In this document: positions 1,289 to 32,401 of the stretch, piece after piece
Numbering within the stretch: position 1 is the first letter of the stretch
Layout of the letters: each line of letters starts with the position of its first letter
NCBI GenBank assembly: GCA_019638775.1
Contig: JAHBTD010000003.1
Span: 62,001 to 126,000 of the forward strand
Direction: 5' to 3'
DNA from: Fimbriimonadaceae bacterium
Lineage (GTDB): Bacteria; Armatimonadota; Fimbriimonadia; Fimbriimonadales; Fimbriimonadaceae
DNA length: 64,000 nt
The notes under the pieces: generated by a model
Told to the model about the DNA's origin: nothing
Seen by the model: only the letters and a program-made list of their open reading frames with translations
Databases searched by the model: none
Program-made: the position numbers and the translations under genes

Positions 1289-3904
1289 ATGAGCCGACAC
1301 AGGCTGATCATCATCGACGGCTATAGCCTGCTCTTCCGGGCGTTCTATTCCACCCGTTTCATGAGCACGACCGACGGGCGCCCCACAAACGCGCTCTACG
1401 GCTTCACGGGAATGATCTTTTCGATCCTGGAGCGCGAGAAGCCCGACGCGCTTGTTCTTGCGTTGGACGGCCCTGGAAAGACATTCCGGCACGCCGAATA
1501 CGCCGAGTACAAAGGCACCCGCAAAGAGCCCGAACCCGAGCTTGTGCAGCAATTTCCGTGGGCACGTGATCTGTTGGACGCCCTTGGCATACCCGCGATC
1601 GAAGTCCCGGGCTACGAGGCGGATGACATCGTCGGCACGATAAGCAAAGAGGCCGAATCGAAGGGTTACGACACATACATCGTGACGGGCGACAACGATC
1701 AACTGCAGCTTGTGGATGAATATGTAAACGTGCTCACGACGAAGGTGGGTGTCTCCGACCTGCTCGTTTACACGCCGGAGAAGGTCCTCGAAAAGTTTGG
1801 CGTTCCCCCGATCAATGTGCCCGACTGGAAGGCGATTGTGGGTGACAGCTCCGACAACATCCCAGGCGTTCCAGGAATTGGCGAGAAGGGCGCGACCTAC
1901 CTATTGCAAAAGTATCAGACCATCGAGAACCTGCTCGAAAATCTCGATGAGGTCGAAGAGAAATACCGCAAGAAGATTTTGCCTGTGATTGAGCAAGTGC
2001 CAAAGTCGAAATGGCTTGCGACGATCTGCCGAGAGGTTCCGCTAGAGTATGACTTTGAGCCGTTCCGAGTGTCTGCCGAGCAGCTTGAAACCGCGAAGTC
2101 GATGCTGGAATCGTTTGAGTTCAAGTCGCATCATAAGCGATTGCCAGCGGTGATGTCGCGTTACATGGAGGGGGGGCAGGCGATGGATGCTCCGGTGGTG
2201 GAGGTTGCACAAGAGTCGCTTGCTGTCACCTCTTCGGAGATTCAAGACCCCGACGCGCTGATTGCGTTCGTTGGCAACTCTCCCTTTGCCGTTCTGCTCG
2301 ACTCCGGTCCTGCGCAGATGAGCATGTTCGACGAATCTGGCCGTGCTGCCTATGTCGCCGTCGGCTCGAAGGTTGCCAAGACTACCGACAAGGCCGTTCT
2401 GAACCTCGTCCACAAGGACCCCTCCAAGCTGATCGGGCATGACGTCAAGCCACTTTTCAAGGCGATCCCCGCGACACAAACTGCGCCTCGATTTGATACG
2501 ATGCTCGCGGCGTATGTGCTTTATCCAGGCCGTTCCAGCTATTCCCTTCGAGATCAAGTTTCGGCGTATTTGGATATCGCCATGCCGGAGACCCAAGAGG
2601 GGATGGCCTCGGCGATTTTCCTTTTGGACGCAGCGATGAGCGAGCGGTTGGAGAAGGAGGGGCAGACGAAGGTCATGCGGGAGATCGAACTCCCACTCCT
2701 GCCCGTGCTTGCCGAGATGGAGAATTACGGCATCAAAACCAGCGCCGATTACCTTCGTGAATTCTCGAAGTCGCTCGATGTGACCATTCAAGAAACTCAG
2801 AAGAAGGTTTATGAAATGGCGGGGCAGGAGTTCAATATAGGTTCTCCTAAGCAGCTTGGTGAAGTGCTCTTCGACAAGATGGGCATTCCCGGCGAGAAGA
2901 AGACGAAAACGGGTTACGCTACGGGTGCAGAGATTCTGCAAGTGCTCGCTCCCGAGCATCCCATCGCCACTGAGGTCTTGAACTGGCGCGAGTTAACCAA
3001 GCTCAAATCGACTTACGCCGATGCCCTGCCGCGCATGATCCGGGAAGACGGACGCATCCACACAACGTATGCCCAAGCTGTTGCCGCAACCGGACGCCTC
3101 AGCTCGAACGATCCGAACCTGCAAAATATCCCCACACGCACAGAGTTGGGTCGGCAAATTCGTAAGGCGTTCACCGCCGATGAGGGCTTCATACTCGCCT
3201 CATTTGACTACTCTCAGATTGAGCTGCGGCTGCTGGCGCACATGTGCAAGGACCAAGCGCTGGTGGACGCTTTCGCCAATCACGAGGACGTTCACAAGGC
3301 GACGGCTGTGCTTATGTTTGGGGCGGCGGGTGATGACGTCACGAAGGAGCAGCGTGGGTTTGCGAAGCTGCTGAACTTCGCCGTCTTGTACGGGGTCACT
3401 GACTTTGGTCTTGCGAACCAGCTCGGCGGCAACTTCTCGGTGTCTGAGGCAAAAGCGCTGATCACCCAATACTACGAGCGATTCCCGAAGGTGAAGGGCT
3501 TTACCGACTCGGTGATCGCCGATGCCAAGGCGAAGGGCTTTACGACGACGCTCTACGGCAGGCGAAGATACTTCCCCGACATTCATGCCCAAAACCGAAA
3601 TGAACGCCTGTACGCAGAACGTCAGGCGATGAACGCACCGATCCAGGGTTCCGCCGCCGACATGATCAAGCTCGCGATGCTTGAAGTTCGCAAAAAGCTG
3701 GACGGAAAGAAGACACGAATGTTGCTGCAAGTTCACGACGAGCTTGTGTTTGAGCTTGCGAAGGGTGAAGAAACCGGGCTGATAGAGCCGATCCGCAAAG
3801 CGATGGAAGAGGCCATGCCGCTTGATGTCCCCATCGAAGTGGATTCAAAGTTCGGCCCCAACTGGAATGAGATGGGGCCGCTGGAAGCTTTGGCAAAGGG
3901 GTAA
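1289..3904 (+). CDS. polA: DNA polymerase I
   Basis: 871 residues. The N-terminal about 290 residues form the 5'-3' flap exonuclease (IIIDGYSLLFRAFY; GYEADDIVGT; TGDNDQLQLV; GDSSDNIPGVPGIGEKGA). The middle domain is degenerate: the proofreading DxE motif is replaced by VLLDSGPAQ, so 3'-5' exonuclease activity is probably absent, as in Taq polymerase. The polymerase domain is complete: motif A DYSQIELRLLAH, motif B RGFAKLLNFAVLYG (Ala where most family A enzymes have Gly), motif C QVHDELVFE. It acts in Okazaki-fragment maturation and repair. A longer reading from 1244 would overlap the nuclease gene; the ATG at 1289 is chosen because homologues begin at this point and TACCTT sits seven bases before it. 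Confidence 0.97.
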   Translation: MSRHRLIIIDGYSLLFRAFYSTRFMSTTDGRPTNALYGFTGMIFSILEREKPDALVLALDGPGKTFRHAEYAEYKGTRKEPEPELVQQFPWARDLLDALGIPAIEVPGYEADDIVGTISKEAESKGYDTYIVTGDNDQLQLVDEYVNVLTTKVGVSDLLVYTPEKVLEKFGVPPINVPDWKAIVGDSSDNIPGVPGIGEKGATYLLQKYQTIENLLENLDEVEEKYRKKILPVIEQVPKSKWLATICREVPLEYDFEPFRVSAEQLETAKSMLESFEFKSHHKRLPAVMSRYMEGGQAMDAPVVEVAQESLAVTSSEIQDPDALIAFVGNSPFAVLLDSGPAQMSMFDESGRAAYVAVGSKVAKTTDKAVLNLVHKDPSKLIGHDVKPLFKAIPATQTAPRFDTMLAAYVLYPGRSSYSLRDQVSAYLDIAMPETQEGMASAIFLLDAAMSERLEKEGQTKVMREIELPLLPVLAEMENYGIKTSADYLREFSKSLDVTIQETQKKVYEMAGQEFNIGSPKQLGEVLFDKMGIPGEKKTKTGYATGAEILQVLAPEHPIATEVLNWRELTKLKSTYADALPRMIREDGRIHTTYAQAVAATGRLSSNDPNLQNIPTRTELGRQIRKAFTADEGFILASFDYSQIELRLLAHMCKDQALVDAFANHEDVHKATAVLMFGAAGDDVTKEQRGFAKLLNFAVLYGVTDFGLANQLGGNFSVSEAKALITQYYERFPKVKGFTDSVIADAKAKGFTTTLYGRRRYFPDIHAQNRNERLYAERQAMNAPIQGSAADMIKLAMLEVRKKLDGKKTRMLLQVHDELVFELAKGEETGLIEPIRKAMEEAMPLDVPIEVDSKFGPNWNEMGPLEALAKG

Positions 3905-29064: not shown

Positions 29065-29412
29065 CTAGTTTGATTGAGTTGAGGCGATGTGATCTTCCCA
29101 TTGCATCGCTGTATGAAGGATTCGTATGATACGAATGCCGCCGCTGATCTGTCTGTAGACAATTCTGTGACCGTGCGCAGAGCGCCTGTTTCGGATCTTC
29201 GCGAGGTACATCATCAATTCGGGATATTGTTGAATTGTACGACCAATCGACGGGTTGGTAGCAAGGCTCTGAAGCGTCTCTTGCAAGAAGGCGGTGTACC
29301 GGTTTGCCTGTTCATCGCCCCAGTTTGAGGCTGTAGCATTGTCGATAGAGGCGAGATCAAGCATCGCTGCCTCTGTGAGCAGAACTAAGCGCTCTGGTTG
29401 GACTTCATCCAT
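29065..29412 (-). CDS. RelE/ParE-family toxin
   Basis: 115 residues. The fold signature is clear: ERLVLLTEAAMLDLASIDNATASNWG at the N terminus, a helix (TLQSLATNPSIGR) and the C-terminal strands HGHRIVYRQISGGIRIIRILHTAMQWEDHI, which match ParE toxins (gyrase inhibitors) of the plasmid-stabilisation type. Its start overlaps the last 28 bases of the antitoxin gene in another frame, so it is probably made by coupled translation. Confidence 0.87.
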   Translation of the reverse strand: MDEVQPERLVLLTEAAMLDLASIDNATASNWGDEQANRYTAFLQETLQSLATNPSIGRTIQQYPELMMYLAKIRNRRSAHGHRIVYRQISGGIRIIRILHTAMQWEDHIASTQSN

Positions 29413-29627: not shown

Positions 29628-31040
29628 TTAACGAGACGCCTTCTCCCCGAACTCAATCAGAAACTCCGCCGATTGTGTAATCGCGTCGCTTGGCCCGAGC
29701 ATGGCATCAATCTCGGCAAACGCCTCTAGCTGATTCGTGCGAGTTTCACTATCTTTCAAGACAGCCAATAGCTTTTCGCGGATCGCAGCCCCGGTAGCGG
29801 CATATTGGATCAGTTCTGGCACAACTTCTCGGTCGAGGAGAATGTTGGGTTGAGAGATGTGCTTCACCTTGAAGCCGACCAGGCGGGCCTCTATCTCGGT
29901 GGTCTTTGAGATGCGATAAATGACGACGTGTGGGCATCCACAAAGGGCTGCTTCAAGGGTTGCCGTACCGCTGCAGACGATCCCTGCCCTTGCCTTCAGG
30001 AGGACCTGCGCGGTTTTGCCGACGATAAACTCGTCGTTTCTTCCGGGCGATAGCTTTGACCACCGACTTTGAAGGTCAACAAGGTCCAGGTTTGGAGATA
30101 CGGCAAAGGCGGCTGTTTCGGGCAGGTCCTTGAGCGCGTCGGAGATGGCTGGGAGGTTCTGCTCAATCTCGGCAACTCGGCTGCCGGGGAGAATGGCGAT
30201 GCCCTCCCGTTGATCTGTCGAGGGAGAGGAATGATGATCCGGCATCGACGGAGCGATGCCCTCCCGCTGCTCTCGCACGAGCTGTTTGAGCGGGTGCCCA
30301 AGGAAGTGGGCGTCCACGCCCATCTCCTTCAAAATCTCGGCAGACCAAGGAAACGGGGTAATTACTGCGTCGCAAAGATTCGGCAGGTCTTTGCCTTGCC
30401 GATCTTTGCGCCAGCTGCCTGGGGGAATAAAATAGATCACCTTCCATCCAGCTGCCTTCGCCTGCCGGGAGAGTCTTAGGTTGGCAAAGCCGAAGTCGAT
30501 GGGGATGAAGATGCCGGGCGGGCCTTCGTTCAGAGCGCGTACCGCCTTTCGGTATCCGGCAAGAACTCTGAAATACACACGGACGGCCTGCGTGATTCCA
30601 ATCGCTCCCCATTTGCGGGAGTCGGCGACGATCTGGACGCCTTCGTCGCGCATCTTGGCTCCTCCGATGCCTTCAAATCTTGCTGATATTGGGTTGCTCT
30701 TCGTTCGTCCGTCGGGAGGAAGTGCGCGGTTCTCAGCCTGGGCGACGAGGCGGTAAAGATCGCCGAAGGTGCGCAAGCCTGCTGCTTCCTTATCCGGGGC
30801 TTCAAAGCCGAGAACATTCTCGGCTTGCATGACCATCTCCATGGTATCGAGCGAATCGAGACCCTCAGCAATGAGCAACTCTTGGTCAGTTGGGGTTTGG
30901 CTCAAGCCCAACGCTTGGGCAACGCGGGTCCGGAAAGGATCGGCTTCTTCCATCGGCTGATTCAGCCGCTTCATCTCCCGCACAAGCGCGGCCCCGTATG
31001 CATCGCCGGAAGCCTCGCCTGCAGAAAGGAAGTACCTCAT
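29628..31040 (-). CDS. lpxB: lipid-A-disaccharide synthase with inserted ACP-like domain
   Basis: 470 residues against about 380 usual. LpxB joins UDP-diacylglucosamine and lipid X to the lipid A disaccharide at the inner membrane. The N terminus MRYFLSAGEASGDAYGAALV is canonical, as are FEGIGGAKM, IPIDFGFANL (catalytic-type Asp), FLGHPL, ILPGSRVAEIEQ and SGTATLEAALCGCPHVVIY. Between the first helix (REMKR, residue 25) and FEGIGG (residue 122) lies about 95 extra residues containing an acyl carrier protein-like domain (see 30732-30950). A second oddity is the linker before ILPGSR, where QREGIA occurs twice 19 residues apart. Start ATG overlaps the lpxA stop (ATGA). Last of fabZ-lpxA-lpxB. Confidence 0.9.
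   Translation of the reverse strand: MRYFLSAGEASGDAYGAALVREMKRLNQPMEEADPFRTRVAQALGLSQTPTDQELLIAEGLDSLDTMEMVMQAENVLGFEAPDKEAAGLRTFGDLYRLVAQAENRALPPDGRTKSNPISARFEGIGGAKMRDEGVQIVADSRKWGAIGITQAVRVYFRVLAGYRKAVRALNEGPPGIFIPIDFGFANLRLSRQAKAAGWKVIYFIPPGSWRKDRQGKDLPNLCDAVITPFPWSAEILKEMGVDAHFLGHPLKQLVREQREGIAPSMPDHHSSPSTDQREGIAILPGSRVAEIEQNLPAISDALKDLPETAAFAVSPNLDLVDLQSRWSKLSPGRNDEFIVGKTAQVLLKARAGIVCSGTATLEAALCGCPHVVIYRISKTTEIEARLVGFKVKHISQPNILLDREVVPELIQYAATGAAIREKLLAVLKDSETRTNQLEAFAEIDAMLGPSDAITQSAEFLIEFGEKASR
30732..30950 (-). other. acyl-carrier-protein-like domain inside LpxB
   Basis: Residues 31-103 of LpxB. Helix I FRTRVAQALGL, the loop, then AEGLDSLDTMEMVMQAENVL with Asp62-Ser63-Leu64, the phosphopantetheine attachment motif of ACP, then GFEAPDKEAAGLRTFGDLYRLV matching the acidic PDEEA.. 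T..D helix III/IV part of ACP. Compared with E. coli AcpP, DSLDT, E, VM, PD and EA are shared at equivalent places. The domain is in frame with no stop, so the host protein reads through. The serine codon is at 30852-30854. Confidence 0.88.
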
Positions 31041-31825
31041 CTCTGGTCGCCGCGACCGTTCTTACCCTTGAACAGCCGTTCAAGAAATGCCAGGAGGTAC
31101 TCAAGCTCCACGCTGGAATCAACCTCCTTGCGAACGATCTCCAGCGCATGGGATAGGCCAAGCTCTGACTTAAAGAGAAGCTTGCAGGCTTTATGCAGAC
31201 CCATTCGCACAGGCTGGGTGACACCAATCCGGCGAAGACCGACGGCGTTGATGTCGGCAACCTGCTCGTCTCCGGAGCTATACAGCATAAACGGGGGGAT
31301 GTCTCGAACGATCTTTCCGAAGCCGCCCACCATCGCGATCTTTCCAATGCGCACAAACTGGTGGATGCCGACCATTCCTCCGATGTTGGCCATCTCTTCG
31401 ACGGTGACGTGTCCAGAAAGTCCGACATTGTTTGCCATGGTCACATGGTCGTGCAAGACGACGTTATGGCCAAGATGGCAATAGGCCATCAAAAAGCAAT
31501 CATTACCCACCACCGTGGTGTTGCCTTCGCCCGAGGCACGGTGGATGGTCACATATTCGCGGAAAATGTTGTCGTTGCCGATGGTGAGAAACGTGGGTTC
31601 GCCTTTGTATTTGCGGTCCTGCGGAGGGCCGCCGATGACCGAACCTTGCCCAAAGAAGTTGCGCTCGCCGATCGTGGTGCCGCTTTTGATGGTCACGTGG
31701 GAATCGAGTTTGCAATCCGACCCAATGGTGACACCACCCTCAATGTAGCAAAACGGGCCGATCTCGACATTAGCCGCGATCTGCGCCGAGGGGTCTACGT
31801 GAGCAAGGGCGTGTATGGTTGGCAA
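31037..31825 (-). CDS. lpxA: UDP-GlcNAc O-acyltransferase (acyl-ACP dependent)
   Basis: 262 residues. Left-handed beta-helix hexapeptide repeats run from residue 5 to about 190; FREYVTIHRA and YCHLGHNVVL (catalytic His) and GGMVGIHQFVRIG are signature blocks. It starts lipid A synthesis by moving 3-hydroxyacyl from ACP to UDP-GlcNAc. The start codon is TTG directly after the TAG stop of fabZ, with no gap, so translation depends on re-initiation. ATGA overlap with lpxB. Confidence 0.95.
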   Translation of the reverse strand: MPTIHALAHVDPSAQIAANVEIGPFCYIEGGVTIGSDCKLDSHVTIKSGTTIGERNFFGQGSVIGGPPQDRKYKGEPTFLTIGNDNIFREYVTIHRASGEGNTTVVGNDCFLMAYCHLGHNVVLHDHVTMANNVGLSGHVTVEEMANIGGMVGIHQFVRIGKIAMVGGFGKIVRDIPPFMLYSSGDEQVADINAVGLRRIGVTQPVRMGLHKACKLLFKSELGLSHALEIVRKEVDSSVELEYLLAFLERLFKGKNGRGDQR

Positions 31826-32263
31826 CTACTCTTCCCTCGGTACCAGCTTGCAGATGATCTCAGCCTCTGCGACACGCTGGTCGTCGACGGTCGCCGAGAC
31901 GATGACTTTACCGATGACGCCTTTGATCCAAGCAATCTCGGCGACACTGACCAAGCGGTCACCAGGAATGACGGGTCTTCGGAGCTTCACATTGTCGATA
32001 GAACCGATGAGTGGGACGAGTCCACCAAGTTTGGGGTCGCTCAACAAAAGCACCGCACCGACTTGGGCCATTGCTTCGATGATGAGAACGCCGGGCATGA
32101 CTGGCATCCCTGGATAATGGCCTTGAAAAAACTGCTCGTTAAACGTAACGCATTTAAGGCCTTTGATCGACTTCCCAGGTTCAATCTCAAGAATCCGGTC
32201 GACGAGAAGCATCGGGTAGCGATGCGGCAGGTACGCCAGGATTCTCTCGATATTCATGGGCAT
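31826..32263 (-). CDS. fabZ: 3-hydroxyacyl-ACP dehydratase
   Basis: 145 residues from the ATG at 32263. Hot-dog fold with LPHRYPMLLVDRIL, FFQGHYPGMPVMPGVLIIEAMAQ (catalytic His and Glu region) and IDNVKLRRPVIPGD. It dehydrates 3-hydroxyacyl-ACP in fatty acid elongation and competes with LpxA for the same substrate, which explains the common fabZ-lpxA pairing. The frame stays open upstream to 32371 but that extension is not like FabZ; ATG 32257 two codons later is an alternative. No clear ribosome binding site. Confidence 0.93.
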   Translation of the reverse strand: MPMNIERILAYLPHRYPMLLVDRILEIEPGKSIKGLKCVTFNEQFFQGHYPGMPVMPGVLIIEAMAQVGAVLLLSDPKLGGLVPLIGSIDNVKLRRPVIPGDRLVSVAEIAWIKGVIGKVIVSATVDDQRVAEAEIICKLVPREE

Positions 32264-32401
32264 CGTGAGGTCGTCCGCTTGCACGGGGTGAAGAATACCC
32301 GGCAGTCGGCGGTTGCCCCCGATCTTTGGGCGTGTTGATCGCCTGCATGAAACTCCCCGAATGAAATCCATCGGCGACAGTTGTAGAATAGGCCGTACAC
32401 C

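Follow-up and report, generated by a model that had tools for sequence, protein, structure and literature searches.

An acyl carrier protein domain inserted in the lipid-A-disaccharide synthase of a Fimbriimonadaceae bacterium

The glycosyltransferase LpxB transfers 2,3-diacylglucosamine to lipid X, a step that uses no acyl carrier protein (ACP). In the stretch of Fimbriimonadaceae DNA analyzed here (64,000 nucleotides, hereafter the window), the lpxB gene has 470 codons, compared with 382 amino acids for E. coli LpxB. What are the additional residues, and what might they do in an otherwise ordinary LpxB? The gene belongs to an operon with the order fabZ-lpxA-lpxB (Table 1), in which fabZ is immediately upstream and a 4-base overlap joins the lpxA stop to the lpxB start. 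FabZ acts on ACP. So, in the lipid A pathway of E. coli, do LpxA, LpxD, LpxL, and LpxM (PMC9456370). The association of lpxB with lpxA and fabZ in one operon is shared with E. coli. A small ORF directly downstream of lpxB (29065-29412, minus strand) gives the impression of a ParE/RelE-type toxin in its sequence.

Table 1. Features of the lpxB locus, in window coordinates
Feature	Coordinates	Strand	Basis
lpxB, lipid-A-disaccharide synthase with inserted domain, 470 aa	29628..31040	-	Pfam LpxB 194.5 bits; catalytic residues invariant
ACP domain, residues 31-103 (Pfam match 37-99)	30732..30950	-	PP-binding above cut-off; ACPs in PDB; four model helices
Phosphopantetheine attachment motif Asp62-Ser63-Leu64	30849..30857	-	Sequence; aligned to E. 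coli AcpP D35-S36-L37
Linker from ACP domain to strand 2, about residues 104-119, low confidence	30684..30731	-	pLDDT about 56-66, <50 at 113-116
lpxA	31037..31825	-	ORF list; named by hexapeptide-repeat sequence and place; conserved neighbor
fabZ, first operon gene, true start may be internal	31826..32371	-	ORF list; conserved neighbor in relatives

An ACP domain in the first Rossmann domain of LpxB

The protein matches the Pfam LpxB family (PF02684) with a score of 194.5 bits against a cut-off of 22.6. Its TIGR00215 equivalog score is 168 bits, under the cut-off of 190, a shortfall that can be explained by the insert and by sequence divergence. It shares the whole GT-B core and the GEASGD loop with the GT19 enzyme of E. 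coli (5W8N, 5W8S, 5W8X). Asp182, Trp210, and Arg288 align with E. coli Asp98, Trp126, and Arg201, residues whose roles have been described (PMC5785501, PMC6286764), and they are invariant in 90 of 90 aligned sequences. Judged from its sequence, the catalytic core of this LpxB is intact, and a function in lipid A synthesis is predicted from these residues together with the pathway genes present (lpxA, fabZ, and genes for LpxK and an LpxL-like protein). The latter two, LpxK and an LpxL-type acyltransferase, are encoded side by side elsewhere on the contig that carries lpxB.

The difference from the E. coli enzyme consists of about 90 extra residues, and these form an ACP domain. They are inserted in frame between helix 1 and strand 2, where residues 31 and 34 of E. 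coli LpxB flank the site in the alignment. The loop that follows helix 1 has 98 residues here and approximately 4-16 in aligned relatives that lack an insert, which bears out the original prediction that this LpxB is about 90 residues longer than usual. Other long LpxB proteins are covered by the NF002173/PRK01021 model (610 positions), where the LpxB match begins only at about model position 255 and the extra sequence is therefore mainly N-terminal, whereas in the present protein it sits within the first Rossmann domain.

Within the full-length protein, residues 37-99 match the PF00550 PP-binding family (29.7 bits, E = 7.7e-7, curated cut-off 20.8), and the excised insert segment reaches 34.1 bits against the same cut-off. 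A genome-wide scan with PF00550 finds only three other ACPs above the cut-off. In NCBIfam the segment matches only acyl carrier proteins, each under its own cut-off, and its sequence relatives in the PDB are ACPs only among the matches listed (best E = 1.8e-6). A profile of seven related inserts aligns with a profile of free ACPs over 68 columns (98.7% probability) with the DSL motifs in register. Identity to AcpPs is approximately 30% over aligned columns. The insert retains Asp62, Ser63, Leu64, Asp65, Glu68, and Met71, which correspond in the alignment to AcpP D35-S36-L37-D38, E41, and M44, and it is hydrophobic at 15 of 20 positions that are hydrophobic in AcpP versus 5 of 44 polar positions (P = 9e-7).

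An AlphaFold2 model of LpxB, computed from an input alignment of 70 LpxB sequences (mean pLDDT 90.6), places insert helices at residues 35-43, 63-77, 83-87, and 92-102. This is the helix order of an ACP, and helix II begins with Ser63. The pLDDT of the ACP domain (about 65-86) is lower than the mean for LpxB, and the linkers are low too. A fold search with the whole chain returns GT-B enzymes, although such searches do not probe the ACP part. Among the closest structural matches of the LpxB model is also a subunit of Tetrahymena respiratory complex I (7tgh; 8gym chain T1; 8b6f chain A0), with a VIA Z of 26-27 over about 370 residues at 16% identity; this match, which rests on a model, suggests that ciliate complex I may contain an LpxB-like or GT-B subunit.

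An ACP domain with its DSL serine had been predicted between helix 1 and strand 2 of LpxB, and Pfam, the PDB relatives, and the helix order of the AlphaFold2 model agree on it. GC and GC3 of the insert are the same as in the remainder of lpxB, and independent assemblies show this architecture as well, which excludes the assembly error that had been raised as a concern. These results confirm that the insert is an ACP domain whose phosphopantetheine site motif is intact. It shares with AcpP and the PF00550 family the order of four helices, the DSL serine, and the acidic helix II, but it is neither free nor part of a PKS, NRPS, or FAS megasynthase and resides instead in a glycosyltransferase.

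The same genome separately encodes a canonical AcpP (an 84-aa ORF), so the insert is not a replacement for it. A second free ACP, of the DSM type (a 96-aa ORF), is present in two near-identical copies. These are on contigs C8 (L003) and C12 (L004) of this genome, in 3.2 kb stretches that are equal at 3163 of 3189 positions; this could be a genuine duplication, or the assembly may have kept variants from different strains.

Distribution and divergence of LpxB inserts

We searched 85 Fimbriimonadaceae genomes and could read LpxB from 78, including the source genome. A long insert occurs at the same site in 15 of these 78 proteins, and the remaining 63 (about four fifths) have a short loop. ACP inserts are recognizable in seven genomes, that is, in 7 of the 15 long inserts. 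The motif is DSL or DSM in four of these seven, the window's own (DSL) among them. L009 keeps DSL and an AcpP-like helix II, L007/L137 has DSM, and L036/L103 has DSL but is shortened after helix II and lacks helix IV. In the other three the serine is lost or the motif altered: Ser is replaced by Asp in L049/L104 and, by alignment, by Pro in L037/L147, and L046/L102 has a one-residue gap in the motif. Helix II of L104 is still acidic and hydrophobically patterned (DVDDLEGVEFL), with 18 of 21 core positions hydrophobic. The positions that are buried in AcpP are mostly hydrophobic in all seven ACP inserts (P = 0.003 to 1e-7).

Other long inserts occupy the same loop. We considered an ACP identity for those of L010, L021, L066, L067, L068, L069, L045, and L048 and rejected it, because profile comparison finds no ACP similarity in any of them. 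The insert of L045/L062 is decayed or unrelated sequence. Those of L010, L021/L100/L122, and L066-L069 are of a second kind, with approximately 65-80 residues, four predicted helices, and no Pfam similarity; a model of the L122 insert likewise has four helices, with predicted lengths unlike those of the ACP insert. Across 291 Armatimonadota genomes, no sequence from outside the Fimbriimonadaceae aligns into the insert region among the matches listed. One record titled as a Methanoregulaceae archaeon (L108) has a Fimbriimonadaceae lpxB, and its title or bin label looks wrong.

A link between the ACP insert and the neighborhood of lpxB was also considered. The gene adjoins lpxA in 8 of 9 cases with an ACP insert (two decayed inserts counted) and in 43 of 63 without an insert, which does not clearly set the insert-bearing genes apart from the family at large, and we rejected the link. 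In the stretches read, none of the six lpxB genes with a second-kind insert adjoins lpxA (0/6). No ACP gene was found beside lpxB in relatives.

The ACP inserts diverge rapidly. In genus g7 the most similar inserts reach 37% identity and the LpxB cores that carry them 65%; in genus g5 the corresponding values are 33% and 73%. Among congeners generally, insert identity is at most 33-37%, compared with 62-73% for the LpxB core and 89-96% for AcpP; within g7 the full range for inserts is 17-37%, against the same 89-96% for AcpPs. On a FastTree tree of LpxB cores whose deep branches are weak, the presence of an insert fits the tree better than shuffled labels do, yet it takes 4-6 changes to explain, or a single gain with about 15 losses. 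A tree of inserts and free ACPs places one group of inserts nearer AcpP-like sequences and another nearer a DSM-type ACP, but with approximately 70 residues it does not separate one origin from several.

Possible roles of the inserted domain

The domain has the look of an accessory for docking or regulation, not of a catalytic part, since relatives keep it, lose its serine, or have no such domain. We tentatively favor the reading that the domain is dispensable and serves the ACP-using enzymes of lipid A and fatty acid synthesis as a module for docking or regulation, probably in its holo form in this bacterium. An LpxB that is otherwise normal would have acquired an ACP-derived domain in its alpha1-beta2 loop and would still produce the lipid A disaccharide at the membrane through its usual residues. 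Ser63 would probably be converted to the holo form by a phosphopantetheinyl transferase, because the serine and the acidic helix II residues that are read by the transferase and by ACP-binding enzymes are kept. The genome encodes a PF01648 (ACPS-family) transferase with a score of 25.0 bits, equal to the cut-off.

In a Rossmann domain, the alpha1-beta2 connection is found at one end of the sheet, and the loops with GEASGD and the catalytic Asp are at the other. Loop 62-71 and helix 4 are thought to attach E. coli LpxB to the membrane, approximately 15 Angstrom away from the catalytic Asp (PMC5785501). From the Rossmann topology and these E. coli positions, we infer that the ACP is away from both the membrane-binding loop and the active site. 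It would project on flexible linkers from the noncatalytic, cytosolic end of the N-domain. If so, then its phosphopantetheine arm would be too far from the LpxB active site, which makes contacts with other proteins more likely. Through such docking or feedback, the domain may couple LpxB to the state of the acyl-ACP pool or to FabZ, LpxA, LpxD, or an LpxL-type acyltransferase.

We find no support for the suggestion in the original prediction that the domain holds acyl chains at the membrane, as the insert loop is by topology opposite the membrane-binding loop and L104 and L147 carry Asp and Pro, respectively, in place of the serine. The recruitment of LpxA or the sensing of acyl-ACP, which were proposed with it, are possible. 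In some relatives the domain may persist as a serine-less docking fold, and most would have lost it or never gained it. The acidic, serine-less helix II of L104 fits a docking fold that needs no prosthetic group, and rapid divergence combined with a retained hydrophobic core indicates that the domain is maintained as a fold and is free of the surface constraints of AcpP. A precedent for an ACP that works through protein-protein contact is the MukB-AcpP interaction (cited in PMC9456370), in which, however, the ACP is a free-standing protein and not a covalent part of the enzyme as here.

Several findings count against docking or regulation: the fast divergence of the insert, its absence from 63 of 78 proteins, the shortened domain of L103, and the lack of a clear gain in lpxA adjacency among insert-bearing genes. 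Nearly as likely as a docking or regulatory module is a drifting passenger, an ACP gene fragment that entered a permissive surface loop by chance, folds by itself, is tolerated, and is now drifting and being lost. Divergence that is fast relative to the LpxB core and AcpP fits such weak constraint. The altered motifs in 3 of 7 ACP inserts, the truncation in L103, the many relatives without an insert, and the other or unrecognizable inserts in the same loop (L010, L021, L045, and L048) point in the same direction. However, one would expect a useless insert of 90 residues to be deleted or disrupted fast, and yet all seven ACP inserts remain in frame and preserve the hydrophobic core pattern, and four of them still have DSL or DSM.

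It is unlikely that the holo domain is a working acyl carrier that takes up an acyl chain for delivery to an enzyme docked on LpxB (LpxA, LpxD, or an LpxL-type acyltransferase). The DSL motif and AcpP-like helix II are intact both here and in L009, and a pathway acyltransferase is present in the genome. Loss of the serine to Asp in L104 and to Pro in L147 nonetheless argues against a general carrier role, a canonical AcpP is available, and a carrier that serves multiple enzymes should match AcpP in conservation, which the inserts of genus g7 are far from doing. The Pfam score above the curated cut-off, the ACP-type AlphaFold2 model, the independent assemblies, and the equal GC3 refute the idea that the resemblance is fortuitous, the frame misread, or the assembly chimeric.

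A new domain architecture and its meaning

Our search of the literature (most subscription papers are outside its scope) returned no LpxB-ACP fusion, in agreement with the original prediction, which knew of none. The enzyme is known, but this domain architecture of it is new. The inserted domain differs from AcpP in that the serine is lost in the inserts of some relatives and in that its conservation is far lower. We give little credence to a more elaborate scenario in which ACPs were captured repeatedly in the same LpxB loop within one family and coupled lipid A disaccharide synthesis to acyl-ACP supply, with serine-less docking domains arising later in some lineages; this would be a form of control or scaffolding not known elsewhere.

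Related genomes supply a natural series of LpxB proteins with an intact ACP, a serine-less ACP, an unrecognizable insert, or no insert, and these are ready-made controls for the contribution of the domain. The host phylum, Armatimonadota, has an outer membrane that has hardly been studied. If the domain works, then it would be a physical link between acyl-ACP and a step of lipid A synthesis that does not itself use ACP.
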